DNA of 64,000 bases from a virus. Numbering within the stretch: the stretch's first letter is position 1; the number at the start of each line of letters is the position of its first letter. Below are positions 13,680 through 54,308 of the stretch, in pieces. Position numbers and translations under genes: made by a program. The DNA lies in the IMG/VR virus record IMGVR_UViG_3300042339_000788, positions 1 through 64,000 of that record; one strand, 5' to 3'. The notes below the pieces were generated by a model. The model was not told the origin of the DNA. It worked only from the letters and a program-made list of their open reading frames with translations, and searched no databases.

Positions 13680-13865
13680 ATGAAAAAAACAAAAGCAACT
13701 CAGTCCCAGCCCCTGACCTATTCGTCAGTGGCACCAAACATTTACTTCGACGGTACTAGTTACCGTGTAAGAATGATTCTAAACGGAGAGCGCTACAGCA
13801 AGAACTTAACTTCTAAGCGTGCTGCAGTAATGTACCGTAACTCACTTCTTAAGACAGCTTCATAA
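13680..13865 (+). CDS. Small basic protein resembling an integrase arm-type DNA-binding domain
   Basis: A 61-residue protein. After a disordered N-terminus, NIYFDGTSYRVRMILNGER and KNLTSKRAAVMYRNSLL form the three-strand plus helix pattern of AP2-like/arm-type DNA-binding domains of tyrosine integrases. No catalytic domain follows, so it is a stand-alone DNA-binding protein rather than an integrase (inference). It has its own promoter and a strong terminator. Confidence 0.75.
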   Translation: MKKTKATQSQPLTYSSVAPNIYFDGTSYRVRMILNGERYSKNLTSKRAAVMYRNSLLKTAS

Positions 13866-13936: not shown

Positions 13937-14665
13937 ATGAGAGAACAAAACGAACCAACAAAACTATCCATTACCGGCAAGACGCTAGCGGGACTAGCCG
14001 GCCAGGTATTCAAAGATGACCCATATGAATATAGAATATACGTGAAGACCGGCGAGCTTGGAGACTCGACAATTGTATCCATATCCATCTTCATCGAGAA
14101 CACTCCTCCGCATGTAGGTGTGGACCTGTACCTAATGGCCCTAAAACGTGTGGCCGAAGTGGCCGGCGATCACATAGAAAATTCAGAATGGATGATCAAT
14201 AAGGTAATCATAGAACAATATGAAGCCCTGGGTGAAATGACCCCAATGGTCACCGGACAAAGATCAAACATATTCGGGCTCCAATCATATAGAAGCCTCG
14301 AAGAGAAAATTAGAACCAATCTAACAAAATCAATTAACTTTCAACAAGTAAACGATATTATAGATGTTAGAAAAAGAAAGCTAACCAAGGTTCTTAACTA
14401 TATGCAGAAAACACTACCAACATATAAGCAACCTCTTAACATAACTTACACCATATCTGGTGAAGTAAAAAGACACAACGAAGAAATCCTGGCTCCAAGT
14501 ATTAAAGCAGATATCAATGTCACCATGGTAGAAAAACCAAAAGCAAGCGATCACACCGCAAGAGTAATTATAGACGCTATAAAAGATAGTATATATGAAA
14601 TGATAGAAGATCTATCACCCATAGACATCCACTCGTATGACAACATTACAATAAAAGTATCATAA
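13937..14665 (+). CDS. Hypothetical protein, 242 aa
   Basis: Starts MREQNEPTKLSITGKTLAGL. A mixed alpha/beta N-terminal half is followed by a helical middle (EEKIRTNLTKSINF, NDIIDVRKRKLTKVL) and a beta-rich end. No recognised family. Base and codon use are poorer in the AAATAAAACTAT and promoter signals of the block; instead it has the ATATTTAT element. It is the last rightward gene before the non-coding hub and may be expressed separately from the genes upstream. Confidence 0.75.
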   Translation: MREQNEPTKLSITGKTLAGLAGQVFKDDPYEYRIYVKTGELGDSTIVSISIFIENTPPHVGVDLYLMALKRVAEVAGDHIENSEWMINKVIIEQYEALGEMTPMVTGQRSNIFGLQSYRSLEEKIRTNLTKSINFQQVNDIIDVRKRKLTKVLNYMQKTLPTYKQPLNITYTISGEVKRHNEEILAPSIKADINVTMVEKPKASDHTARVIIDAIKDSIYEMIEDLSPIDIHSYDNITIKVS

Positions 14666-14669
14666 GATG

Positions 14670-14696
14670 CTCGGACCAGTACCATACTGGTCCTCG
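14670..14696 (+). repeat. CTCG-bracketed hairpin, unit 1
   Basis: CTCG (14670-14673), GACCAGTA, loop CCA, TACTGGTC, CTCG (14693-14696). The 8-bp stem is perfect. Confidence 0.85.
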
Positions 14697-14706
14697 CTGT
14701 ATGACG

Positions 14707-14732
14707 CCCAGACTAACCCTCTGGGTTTTTTT
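14707..14732 (+). terminator. Intrinsic terminator closing the rightward block
   Basis: CCCAG (14707-14711) pairs with CTGGG (14721-14725); an alternative AACCC/GGGTT stem uses the same arm. Seven T follow (14726-14732). Confidence 0.7.
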
Positions 14733-14786
14733 ATGCGTCTATCTTATGACCGCGTATGACTGGCCCACTGTATGACGGTCCAGCAG

Positions 14787-14817
14787 CGAGCCGGTCAGTA
14801 TAGTACTGACTGGCGAG
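14787..14817 (+). repeat. CGAG-bracketed hairpin, unit 2
   Basis: CGAG (14787-14790), CCGGTCAGTA, loop TAG, TACTGACTGG, CGAG (14814-14817). The 10-bp stem has one G-U pair and shares CAGTA-nnn-TACTG with units 1 and 3. Confidence 0.85.
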
Positions 14818-14870
14818 CATTCTAAATAAAACTATTTTAAAATTGCGTATGACACGCCAGGACATATATG

Positions 14871-14895
14871 CTCGCCCAGTACCATACTGGGCTCG
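14871..14895 (+). repeat. CTCG-bracketed hairpin, unit 3
   Basis: CTCG (14871-14874), CCCAGTA, loop CCA, TACTGGG, CTCG (14892-14895). The 7-bp stem is perfect. Loop and inner stem equal unit 1 while the outer stem differs in both arms. Confidence 0.85.
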
Positions 14896-14924
14896 TCCTG
14901 CGGAGCCGTATGACATCCCCTTAT

Positions 14925-14956
14925 TTATGCACAATATATCCCCTCTTTTATGCACA
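14925..14956 (+). other. Two DnaA-box-like sites TTATGCACA
   Basis: TTATGCACA at 14925-14933 and 14948-14956, a 23-bp repeat, embedded in the 12-mer TTTATGCACAAT. Both fit the TTATnCACA DnaA-box consensus. The phage encodes a DnaA domain IV-like protein at 32752-33168. Confidence 0.6.
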
Positions 14957-14996
14957 ATTAAATCGGCCCGTAATACACCGGACGCGCGCAAGCAGG

Positions 14997-15030
14997 CGAG
15001 CCCTCGATCCCCTTTATGGGAGAGGGCGAG
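14997..15030 (+). repeat. CGAG-bracketed hairpin, unit 4
   Basis: CGAG (14997-15000), CCCTC, then an inner TCCC/GGGA stem, GAGGG, CGAG (15027-15030). A 5-bp outer and 4-bp inner stem separated by a small asymmetric loop. Confidence 0.8.
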
Positions 15031-15158
15031 ATCATATAAAACTGTTTAAATTCCAAATTATTTTTTTTGTGGGTCGTGAGTCACACAAGGTACACTTCCT
15101 GGAGAGTTCCCACTTATCCCCATTTTCTCCCACTTTTTGCGATTGTAATACAGCTAGC

Positions 15159-15182
15159 CAAAAAAAGTGCCCCTAGTGGGGC
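15159..15182 (-). terminator. Minus-strand intrinsic terminator
   Basis: GCCCC (15169-15173), loop, GGGGC (15178-15182). On the minus strand the stem is followed by AC and then T7-8 (15166-15159). It would stop leftward transcripts from the HNH genes. Confidence 0.75.
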
Positions 15183-15350
15183 TTGTATCGCTATAAAATC
15201 AGCTACGATGGAATCAGTACCTAAAATGGCAGTATTATACACATATATTTGCATAAATATGGACTTTTTGGCATGTTTCTATTGTGCAGATTTTAGACCA
15301 TTTATTGTGCCAAATCCGGAAGTAAAAACGCGCCAAACCAGGAAGTTAGT

Positions 15351-15401
15351 GTTCACAAAATACTGTTGTTCACGGATCGTGAACAGAGAACAAACGTGAA
15401 C
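15351..15401. promoter_or_regulatory. Nested GTTCACG palindrome
   Basis: GTTCAC at 15351-15356 and GTTCACG at 15368-15374, then CGTGAAC at 15378-15384 and 15395-15401. All four half-sites are symmetric about 15376, with a 17-bp step on each side. The inner pair is a perfect 7-bp inverted repeat around GAT. Likely a protein binding site for a dimer or tetramer. Confidence 0.7.
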
Positions 15402-15409
15402 ATATAGGG

Positions 15410-15431
15410 CTCGCAATCTCTCGATTGCTCG
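15410..15431 (+). repeat. CTCG-bracketed hairpin, unit 5
   Basis: CTCG (15410-15413), CAATC, loop TCTC, GATTG, CTCG (15428-15431). A short CTGC-GAA-GCAG hairpin follows directly (15432-15442). Confidence 0.8.
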
Positions 15432-15449
15432 CTGCGAAGCAGGTAGTAT

Positions 15450-15481
15450 GATCGCCCCTTCGCATAAAGTGCTTAGGGGCT
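15450..15481. repeat. 32-bp hairpin element, copy A (copy B at 27207)
   Basis: 29 of 32 bases match 27207-27238. Outer stem GCCCCT/AGGGGC, inner stem GCA/TGC around TAAAG. The C-G pair fifth in the outer stem is T-A in copy B, a compensatory change. It lies 12 bp downstream of the HNH gene stop on the minus strand. Confidence 0.75.
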
Positions 15482-15492
15482 TTAACAATATA

Positions 15493-16032
15493 CTATATAA
15501 ATTTAAAGATATAACCTTTAAATGATTTTACATCTCCCCTTAAAACCTTTCTAATTCTTTGACTATTTTTTCTTAAAGCAACATTTTTAAGATCGGGGTA
15601 AAAATACCTTGTAGCTTCATTTACTGAATTAAAGGTTTTTGTTTCATTTGTTTTTTTATTAACCATAAGGACAGGTTTATCGAGTCTACCTAAAGAAACC
15701 CCAACAGTATCGATATAGTGTTTAATATTCTCATCTCCTGTGACCCATTCAAGATTCTCTATTCGATTATCATTTTTAATCAAATTAATATGATTTACTT
15801 CTGGTTTATTTTCTGTATTAGGAATAAATGCAGTTGCAATTAATCTATGTATAAAATGTCTTTTTCTTTTATAACCATTTTGCAACGTAACATTAATATA
15901 ACCTTTATTTGTTTTTAATGGTGTGAGTAATCTATTTCTATGTTTAGAATATACCTCACCATTCATACTTACAAAATAAACTCCGTCATATCCAGGAATT
16001 TCTTTCCATATTGATTCATTACTTAAATCCAT
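15493..16032 (-). CDS. HNH homing endonuclease (NUMOD4 + HNH_3)
   Basis: A 179-residue protein. Residues 8-30 (WKEIPGYDGVYFVSMNGEVY) are a NUMOD4 DNA-binding motif. Residues about 60-100 carry the HNH core (HRLIATAF, VNHINLIKNDNRIENLEWVT). A NUMOD1-type segment (TFNSVNEATRYF) and a basic end follow. Such free-standing enzymes cut a specific site and spread by repair-driven copying. It overlaps the next HNH gene upstream by 14 bp and is the most distal gene of the leftward block. Confidence 0.9.
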   Translation of the reverse strand: MDLSNESIWKEIPGYDGVYFVSMNGEVYSKHRNRLLTPLKTNKGYINVTLQNGYKRKRHFIHRLIATAFIPNTENKPEVNHINLIKNDNRIENLEWVTGDENIKHYIDTVGVSLGRLDKPVLMVNKKTNETKTFNSVNEATRYFYPDLKNVALRKNSQRIRKVLRGDVKSFKGYIFKFI

Positions 16033-37345: not shown

Positions 37346-38014
37346 TTATTGATCAACATTTTGCATATCGTCCATATGATGATCATCAACACCAAGCTCG
37401 AAACCAATTTCTCTTTTCTTCATATCATTTAATATTTTTTTCAAATCATATGGCGCGAACTCTGGGTTACCATCCATCCCCACGTCCATTCTACGTCCAT
37501 TACCGAACTTTTTATGGTTAGGTAGGTGACAATGGCCATGAAGGTGAACACGTCCCTTACGAAGCCCATTCCACGATGCAATTGGATAGTGACACATCTC
37601 AATTGTTTCACCTTGATATGAAAATTGTTCGAACCAACTCACACTTAAGAATTTACTTCTGATCTTATCTCTGTTTCTGTCGATGTGATGGTCGTGATTA
37701 CCTAATACCAAATGTATATTCTTGCAAATTAGTCTATTGTGAAACTCCTCAATGTTTTCAAACCCACCGAATGACCAATCACCCAAATGAATTAACACAT
37801 CATCTTGACCAACAACTTCGTTGATGTTATTAACAATCGCCGAATTCATCTTATCGAGAGTTTCGAAGTTTCTTGTTTGTGATTCGGGAACAGAACCATC
37901 TGGCATTCTCCAATTGGTCACACCTCTACATATGTTTTTATGATTGTAGTGTGTGTCGGATGTTATCCAAACTTTAATATCGTTATCTATCTTAATCATA
38001 CTAACAAAAATCAT
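37346..38014 (-). CDS. Calcineurin-like metallophosphoesterase, 222 aa
   Basis: WITSDTHYNHKNICRG, IHLGDWSFGG, VLGNHDHH, CHYPIASW and HLHGHCHLP are the metal-binding motifs of the calcineurin-like superfamily in order. The SDTHxxH start is typical of phage and bacterial YfcE/Icc-like enzymes. Substrate unknown. It overlaps the upstream gene by 14 bp. Confidence 0.88.
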   Translation of the reverse strand: MIFVSMIKIDNDIKVWITSDTHYNHKNICRGVTNWRMPDGSVPESQTRNFETLDKMNSAIVNNINEVVGQDDVLIHLGDWSFGGFENIEEFHNRLICKNIHLVLGNHDHHIDRNRDKIRSKFLSVSWFEQFSYQGETIEMCHYPIASWNGLRKGRVHLHGHCHLPNHKKFGNGRRMDVGMDGNPEFAPYDLKKILNDMKKREIGFELGVDDHHMDDMQNVDQ

Positions 38015-38501
38015 CTGATGATGAAACTCTTAATCCGTCTATAATTCTATCGTCATATTTAGGGTCATCAAAAAATGAACCGGCTCCTTTTGAACGTTGT
38101 TCTTTTCTGTAGTCTTGATTTACAACCCAACCATCTGGTTCACCCCAATCAAGTGCCATTATAATAAACTCTTCAACATTACATTCATCACCATACTCAT
38201 CCACAACTCTACCTGAACGAATAAACTCTAATAGAGTTTCTTTATCTTGATAATATTTCTCCTTGTGAAAATTCCAACAGAATTTCCAACCGGAACTTCT
38301 TTTACCTAAATGTATATTGGTATCTTCTAAAAACATTTCCCATGGTGAAAACCATTCCCATTCTTTTCTTGGACTGATGAATTTAAATCCACTCTCAACA
38401 TTCTCAGGTGATAAATCAAGATTATTCACAAACCCAATTAAGGTTTGTTTACGAGATTCCATTTCCTCTACGGTTGGTATGCGATAGTAGTTAGTCCCCA
38501 T
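38001..38501 (-). CDS. Phage protein of the MGTNYY type, 166 aa
   Basis: MGTNYYRIPTVEEMESRKQT is a recurring phage N-terminus; NIHLGKRSSGWKFCWNFH carries the conserved HxGKxSxGWxF core. Members occur in many tailed phages; no function is known. Its start overlaps the lipoprotein gene by 11 bp. Confidence 0.7.
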   Translation of the reverse strand: MGTNYYRIPTVEEMESRKQTLIGFVNNLDLSPENVESGFKFISPRKEWEWFSPWEMFLEDTNIHLGKRSSGWKFCWNFHKEKYYQDKETLLEFIRSGRVVDEYGDECNVEEFIIMALDWGEPDGWVVNQDYRKEQRSKGAGSFFDDPKYDDRIIDGLRVSSSDDFC

Positions 38502-53144: not shown

Positions 53145-54308
53145 TTAATTACTTAATGGTGCTTTTATTGCTGGGTGTGATTGATAATTTTCCAATATTA
53201 CATCATGATCTCCAAATGAAAATATACCATCTCTAACATGTACTGTTGGTAGATTGAATGGTTCTCTTTTTATTTGTTCCTTAGCTTGTTCAATATGGTT
53301 TGAATATAAATGCACATCACCTAAATTACCAATTAATTCATCGGGAACCATATTCATTTCATCCGCAATCATTTTTAATAATAAACCATAAGACGCTATG
53401 TTGAACGGTAACCCTAAGAATGTATCAACTGAACGTTGGTTCCACATTAGTGAGATTGCCCTTTTAGGAATATTGTATACTTGTAATTCTTCTCTTAATC
53501 CACCACCGAATGGAACAATGTCATCAACCATCAATTGAAACTTCTCTTCTCCTACTTTTTTCTTTAATAAATCCCACATCTCTTCTCCCGTTAATTTTCT
53601 AGTGTATACTTGAAACCCATAATGACAAGGCGGAAGAACCATATGTTCTAACTCACCAACATTCCAAGCACTTACCATCAATCGTCTTGAGTCTGGGTTT
53701 GTTTTAAGTTCATCAATTAAGTTTTGAATTTGGTCAATTGTTTTATCACCCTCAACATATGTATCGTTTCCAGTTAATGGATCTTTCAACGTGGTCTTAA
53801 TTAATGTTTTGGTGTTCCACTGTCTCCACTGTGCACCATATATGGGACCTAACTCACCCCACTCTTCGGCAAATTCGTCATCTGTTTTAATTCTTTCAAT
53901 GAATTCTTCTTGAGTTAATGGTGTTAAGTCATCAGGATTACTAAACATAATTTCAATATGTGGTTGCATTCCCATTATGTCACCACACATATATCCATCA
54001 ATAAGTTCAGTTACTTCTTTAGTGTAGTTCTTGTAAGCATCACCATTCCAAATGTTACATCCGTTCATAACTAGATACTTGATGTTGGTGCTCCCACTTA
54101 AAAACCAAATTAACTCGGTCACCATTGTCTTCCAAGCCATCTTCTTAGTTGTAAGTAATGGGAACCCTTGTGACATTCTATGCCGAATTTGTCTACCAAA
54201 TACTGAAATGGTACCTGTACCAGTCCTATCACTTTTTGTGATACCATTATCTAAAATATCTTGTAATAATTCTTGATATTTTGAATCCAATGTATTCATA
54301 TTTCTCAT
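53145..54308 (-). CDS. thyA: Thymidylate synthase ThyA, with insertions
   Basis: 387 residues. SDRTGTGTISVFGRQ, FPLLTTKKMAWKTMVTELIW, LGPIYGAQWRQW, the catalytic Cys228 in LPPCHYGFQ and QRSVDTFLGLPFNIASYGLL mark thymidylate synthase. Two stretches lengthen it beyond the usual 264: residues about 95-150 after CNIWNGDAY, and about 238-275 after VYTRKLTG. ATG at 54308 or 54299 (third Met). It makes dTMP for phage DNA synthesis. Confidence 0.95.
   Translation of the reverse strand: MRNMNTLDSKYQELLQDILDNGITKSDRTGTGTISVFGRQIRHRMSQGFPLLTTKKMAWKTMVTELIWFLSGSTNIKYLVMNGCNIWNGDAYKNYTKEVTELIDGYMCGDIMGMQPHIEIMFSNPDDLTPLTQEEFIERIKTDDEFAEEWGELGPIYGAQWRQWNTKTLIKTTLKDPLTGNDTYVEGDKTIDQIQNLIDELKTNPDSRRLMVSAWNVGELEHMVLPPCHYGFQVYTRKLTGEEMWDLLKKKVGEEKFQLMVDDIVPFGGGLREELQVYNIPKRAISLMWNQRSVDTFLGLPFNIASYGLLLKMIADEMNMVPDELIGNLGDVHLYSNHIEQAKEQIKREPFNLPTVHVRDGIFSFGDHDVILENYQSHPAIKAPLSN

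Follow-up and report, generated by a model that had tools for sequence, protein, structure and literature searches.

Covarying DNA hairpins with tandem G·A feet at a putative replication-initiation locus of uncultured phages

The window, that is, the whole stretch of DNA analysed (64,000 nucleotides), comprises bases 1-64000 of a linear virus record of 93.5 kb and contains an intergenic gap of 827 bp, home of all five hairpins described here, towards which the genes point from both sides. On its left lie a small conserved protein, p61, and a fast-evolving protein of 242 aa; protein searches found no relatives of the latter or of a 501-aa neighbour protein. On its right the locus is adjoined by an HNH endonuclease gene (window 15493-16032, minus strand), and by eye an HNH-like ORF, short at 148 aa, can be made out at the same position in one related lineage, L253 (G024). 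The features are listed below in window coordinates.

13680-13865, plus strand: p61, 61-aa conserved protein and syntenic marker of the locus, with an AP2/integrase-arm-like fold prediction
13937-14665, plus strand: fast-evolving 242-aa protein between p61 and the locus
14666-15492, no strand: origin-like locus, a convergent intergenic region
14670-14696, minus strand: hairpin U1, CGAG strand GC-GA-GGACCAGTA(TGG)TACTGGTCC-GA-GC
14699-14914, plus strand: five copies of GTATGAC, at 14699, 14754, 14770, 14847 and 14908
14706-14732, plus strand: ordinary intrinsic terminator of the left operon, within the locus, with a U-run
14787-14817, plus strand: hairpin U2, GC-GA-GCCGGTCAGTA(TAG)TACTGACTGGC-GA-GC, with one G-T pair
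14871-14895, minus strand: hairpin U3, C-GA-GCCCAGTA(TGG)TACTGGGC-GA-G
14925-14956, plus strand: two copies of TTATGCACA, one letter off the DnaA box TTATCCACA
14970-15151, minus strand: two copies of GTAATAC, at 14970 and 15145 (YGTATTAC on the minus strand)
14997-15030, plus strand: hairpin U4, C-GA-GCCCTC..GAGGGC-GA-G, with a 2-nt irregularity; nearest plus-strand hairpin left of the core
15031-15068, no strand: AT-rich stretch adjoining the core, AT-rich before the core in aligned relatives too
15069-15153, plus strand: conserved core, GTGGGTCGTGAGTCAC..CAAGG..(CCCACTT)x2..TTGTAATACAG
15235: additional DnaA-like site, TTATACACA
15410-15431, minus strand: hairpin U5, GC-GA-GCAATC(GAGA)GATTGC-GA-GC, right of the core

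A sequence-only reading of this DNA had placed five inverted repeats, each bracketed by one tetranucleotide, at the positions of U1 to U5, and all five were found. The bracketing word alternates as it had noted, CTCG for U1, U3 and U5 and CGAG for U2 and U4, and units 1-3 have CAGTA-nnn-TACTG in common. The stems, described as perfect or nearly so, are perfect in three units and slightly imperfect in U2 and U4 as listed above, and they are one pair longer than described. When the 827-bp region was shuffled 2000 times with dinucleotides preserved, perfect hairpins bracketed by any identical tetramer occurred 0.018 times on average, with a maximum of 2, against three perfect and two slightly imperfect units observed, with one word throughout. 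In the whole 93.5 kb record no CTCG or CGAG pairs 14-50 nt apart with a comparable stem were found outside 14670-15431, and a U-run directly after the stem is absent from all five bracketed units.

The inner letters of the bracket pair with each other (G...C) in every unit, which leaves CTC/TCG unpaired at the foot (CGA/GAG when the opposite strand is read). Set against itself in antiparallel orientation, CGAG gives C-G, G·A, A·G and G-C. Read as pairs, the bracket is therefore the stem itself, continuing outward through a tandem G·A step, with the foot C-GA-[G...C]-GA-G. Tandem G·A steps are familiar from nucleic-acid structure as stable elements of both DNA and RNA. The same word appears at both ends because CGAG self-pairs through this step, and the spacing between the words is free (14 to 30 nt) because the stem continues through the foot; a fixed tetranucleotide pair bound by a protein in duplex DNA was rejected, since this spacing varies.

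Relatives of the locus were sought through a 166-aa protein (window 38001-38501), which as a query gave a large set of related contigs. Scanning the related records for CTCG pairs led to G006-G008, in which units such as CTCGGGACTCTTCGAGTCCCTCG alternate in orientation and which have in common with the window the core GTGGGTCGTGAGTCAC...TCCCACTT and p61. Profiles of p61 then yielded 64 IMG/VR contigs falling into 35 clusters including the window, 21 of them with a recognisable core. Uncultured phage contigs of 21 distinct lineages carry the locus, with gene polarity converging on it in nearly all. Isolate phages and plasmids gave no match to p61, the 166-aa marker protein or the locus, and no family member was found in the genome-contig collection, so that the family is one without a cultured member known here. 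The locus was also absent from the stretch compared in relatives found via a 712-aa radical-SAM protein, and was not seen in L028, the nearest by several proteins. When viral contigs were searched for the pattern CTCG..CAGTANNNTACTG..CTCG, there were 9 matches with no bracketed hairpin cluster among them, which we judged to be chance. Two further genes are of note. The thymidylate synthase gene (window 53145-54308, minus strand) matches that of Flavobacterium phage immuto with 82% identity along some 470 nt, which hints at a host among the Bacteroidota, and a TnpB-like ORF (475 aa, IS605 OrfB type by eye) lies slightly past the locus on a 310 kb contig (L210:6563-7990, minus strand).

Comparison of these lineages separates what is kept in the hairpins from what is free. 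L205 has five units in the same order and on the same strands as the window (R F R F core R) with unrelated stems, and L263 and L298 carry CGAG feet on different stems, GCCCTC(GTA)GAGGGC and GACC(GATA)GGTC. In some lineages CGA[hairpin]GAG persists around stems that bear no relation to each other; in others the form is GGGA[hairpin]GACC, in which the G·A step is kept and the outer pair changes from C-G to G-C. There are also inside-out units, for example GGGACC-GA-CC(GTA)GG-GA-GGTCCC, where the same G-A duplex is closed at the other end, and a second class, TGAA-[GGGGACC GAA GGTCCCC]-G, that keeps the inner A·G alone. The refuting case named by the sequence-only reading, hairpins of related genomes that lack the flanking tetranucleotide, is partly borne out: relatives have hairpins with GGGA...GACC or TGAA...G feet at the same places. 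The earlier proposal that a tetranucleotide at the hairpin foot is recognised stands insofar as the foot matters, but not as a separate word placed twice, since that word is self-paired and is replaced by GGGA/GACC in relatives. The conserved feature is the G-A foot and not the word CTCG.

That the stems covary, a check which the sequence-only reading had called for, was confirmed on 12 distinct units: 97.2% of the cells are paired against 62% when the 3' letters are shuffled, and covariation scores 0.82, whereas shuffling the partners gives 0.16 and none of 500 shuffles reaches the observed value. The signal is lost when the partner is displaced by one to three columns, and 8 rows have C-G as their outer pair against 4 with G-C. 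Because the 12 rows had been picked as tandem-GA units, the test was repeated without requiring the outer pair; the hairpins lying flush between GA and GA, with the next position free, all have a Watson-Crick pair at -3/+3. In 20.6 kb of sequence there are 49 stable hairpins against 1.8 in shuffles; for tandem-GA hairpins the figures are 21 and 0.12. A smaller set, of 11 lineages, had 28 hairpins in 7.1 kb at the locus compared with 46 in 603 kb elsewhere in such phages. The view that this is a selected hairpin family, and not CRISPR, terminators or plain iterons, is borne out, as the foot matters and the stems covary. The hairpins are not indispensable, since several lineages (L254, L271, L282, L284 and others) keep the core, the repeats and p61 with few or none of them.

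The loops follow a rule of their own. Read on the GA strand, those of the relatives are mostly C(GNA)G triloops (GAA, GTA, GGA) or C(GNNA)G tetraloops, and the tetraloops GTCA, GTTA and GACA are not GNRA. In the 11-lineage set, such loops close 19 of the 28 locus hairpins and 4 of the 46 found elsewhere in such phages, and the loop together with an A..G foot on one strand is seen in 17/28 against 1/46. The window is a less typical member, because U5 alone, with its GNNA tetraloop GAGA, belongs to this loop class; U1-U3 have TGG, TAG and TGG closed by A-T. In phage N4, extrusion of the promoter hairpins from DNA needs a closing C:G together with a 5' G and a 3' A in the loop, and non-conserved stem bases only need to pair (PMC4496689). 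We consider that the hairpins of the present locus probably act as DNA, not RNA.

The hairpins stand among short repeats and around the conserved core. Over the 21 lineages, YGTATGAC occurs 66 times against 1.2 in shuffles (55-fold) and YGTATTAC 60 times against 3.1 (19-fold), with 62 of 69 GTATGAC copies on the plus strand. Perfect DnaA boxes number 10 against 0.35 in shuffles and occur in 10 of the 21 lineages; the window has imperfect sites only, in one-mismatch versions. The strand of the hairpins is fixed with respect to the core: the nearest hairpin on its left is on the plus strand in 9/9 lineages and the nearest on its right on the minus strand in 11/11, while foot and loop point to the same strand in 29 of 30 informative hairpins. 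As expected of a DnaA-dependent origin, boxes cluster with an AT-rich element across the 21 lineages (in the window as one-mismatch boxes), and the enrichment of YGTATGAC/YGTATTAC is consistent with iterated initiator-type sites. As expected of ssi-type sites, strand-specific hairpins flank the core on opposite strands.

The protein p61 is predicted to fold as a beta-sheet plus a helix (pLDDT 84). Its best DNA-binding structural matches are integrase arm domains (probability 0.84 and 0.87) and AP2 (0.47), none with an E-value below 0.001, and the model weakly suggests a likeness to these domains.

Taken together, the analysis establishes the elements themselves, their structural covariation, their fixed strand orientation around the core and their co-location with iteron-like repeats and DnaA boxes; a link of the site to replication is supported indirectly, by the DnaA boxes, the iteron-like repeats and the AT-rich core. 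We somewhat favour the reading that a family of large uncultured phages starts replication at this locus, which would be their cis-acting origin or some other site of initiation, the units being hairpins with G-C-rich stems that would work as folded single strands. We further propose, more tentatively and at a little below even chances, a non-Watson-Crick foot code, in which arrays of tandem-GA hairpins with GNA/GNNA loops, on fixed strands facing the core, would be landing sites for a structure-specific replication protein, the lineage-specific feet (CGAG, GGGA/GACC) co-evolving with that protein. In such a scheme, (i) an initiator, host DnaA plus a phage protein, perhaps p61 on YGTATKAC, would open the AT-rich core; (ii) the plus hairpins on the left and the minus hairpins on the right would fold via supercoiling or once single-stranded; (iii) the G·A foot would be read by a structure-specific protein, be it a primase, a helicase loader or an initiator; and (iv) binding of the foot would set the place and strand at which synthesis starts or the helicase is loaded, perhaps with priming. 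Against the origin reading weigh the convergence of transcription and the peak of GC skew at the locus, the lineages that have the core with few or no hairpins, the TGG and TAG loops of the window and its imperfect DnaA-like sites.

Few cases are known in which DNA hairpins have a function in duplex genomes; they include N4 promoters, ssi sites of plasmids and attC. At the origin of plasmid RSF1010, ssiA and ssiB provide one hairpin per strand, and what the primase RepB' recognises is the 5' tail together with the first G-C pair of the foot (PMC4434180). The present hairpins resemble them in lying on opposite strands facing the core with a conserved foot; the ssi sites differ in belonging to a plasmid and in being single 40-nt sites of fixed sequence, whereas here there are up to six or more units with variable stems and a G-A foot. 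In the ABC primosome, DnaA loads DnaB at a folded single-strand hairpin, the A-site (PMC6127211), but this hairpin contains the DnaA box, whereas the boxes here are beside the hairpins. The N4 virion RNA polymerase promoters offer the other close parallel, since there too short hairpins of phage DNA, closed by a C(G.A)G loop, are extruded from duplex and read folded; they differ in that they are early-gene promoters for which PMC4496689 describes no tandem G-A foot, DnaA boxes or iterons, while the present locus is a convergent gap in which the foot is the conserved part. The locus would work like a folded-DNA landing site, with N4 promoters and ssi sites closest, but we do not file it as a member of either class, the first being marked also by its promoter location, polymerase and conserved promoter sequence and the second by its cognate primase.

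The main rival of the origin reading, which we regard as unlikely, is that the locus is a replication terminus, a partition site or a packaging site, the repeats and hairpins binding a fork-arrest, centromere-type or terminase complex. Convergent transcription and a local maximum of GC skew agree with it, and arrays of short repeats with a small DNA-binding protein would fit a partition site too; in bacteria, convergent transcription and a skew peak mark the terminus. The skew peak indeed lies at the locus, where transcription converges, but skew follows gene polarity here, and since gene polarity alone can explain it, the peak gives no call of origin or terminus and was rejected as evidence for either. 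The strong enrichment of DnaA boxes fits initiation better, and a cohesive-end site is not indicated because the contigs carry the locus far from their ends.

It is improbable that the units are hairpin promoters of the N4 type, at which a phage RNA polymerase would be recruited by the extruded hairpins to synthesise transcripts or primers. The C(GNA)G loops of most relatives are as in N4 (PMC4496689) and the hairpin orientation is strand-specific, but most units would give transcripts antisense to the flanking genes, and N4 conserves stem sequence and the surroundings of +1 whereas the stems here are free. A weak point against it is that the T7/N4-type RNA polymerase domain PF00940 was found in 0/20 records, which are incomplete and in which the control was silent. 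We hold it to be highly improbable that the units are RNA-level elements, that is, structured 3' ends, terminators or attenuators of the convergent transcripts: as RNA the region folds better than shuffles on both strands, and one real terminator lies inside it, but the alternation of strands and the lack of U-runs argue against terminators, many loops are triloops or non-GNRA tetraloops, and the locus has no Rfam match. Rfam matched nothing in the window and in a relative only a tRNA; this match, L298:6531-6673 on the minus strand, is stretched over 143 nt although the model has 71 positions, as if the phage tRNA contained an intron or an insertion.

REP elements have a tetranucleotide at the hairpin foot and come in inverted pairs. 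That the units are REP/RAYT, BIME or other mobile hairpins gathered in a permissive gap, a kinship that the sequence-only reading had proposed and that the foot motif and the alike stems within one genome (U1/U3; U4/U5 of L205, as if by copying or conversion) recall, is largely refuted and very hard to credit, since the foot here is self-paired via G-A, the hairpins are confined to one locus with no copies elsewhere in 93.5 kb, different lineages agree in hairpin order, in strand and in spacing from the core, and the Y1 transposase domain PF01797 was found in 0/20 family records, which are fragments, while the control matched in 5 of 14.

At a putative replication origin of an uncultured phage family, covariation over the 21 distinct lineages speaks for DNA that folds, with pairs beyond Watson-Crick among those formed. 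The oddity of the same four letters at both ends becomes a structural rule open to test, and other genomes can be searched for folded-DNA elements with the pattern GA-[stem]-GA plus a C(GNA)G loop. Should the foot code be true, it would mean sequence-level selection for mismatched pairing in genomic DNA.

Some smaller features of the locus deserve mention. To the right of the core (window 15353-15402) there is an array GTGTTCAC...GTTCACG-nnn-CGTGAAC...GTGAACA, which looks like an operator; it is conserved in L244, where it closes the intergenic region on the right, in surroundings that are not conserved. An AAGTGG-n-AAGTGG pair beside the core lies on opposite strands in L210, L258 and L282 as compared with the window, L209 and L263, as if inverted. 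Within the core of most relatives, for example L254, the sequence GGG-WCAAT-CCC could fold as a small hairpin with a conserved 5-nt loop.
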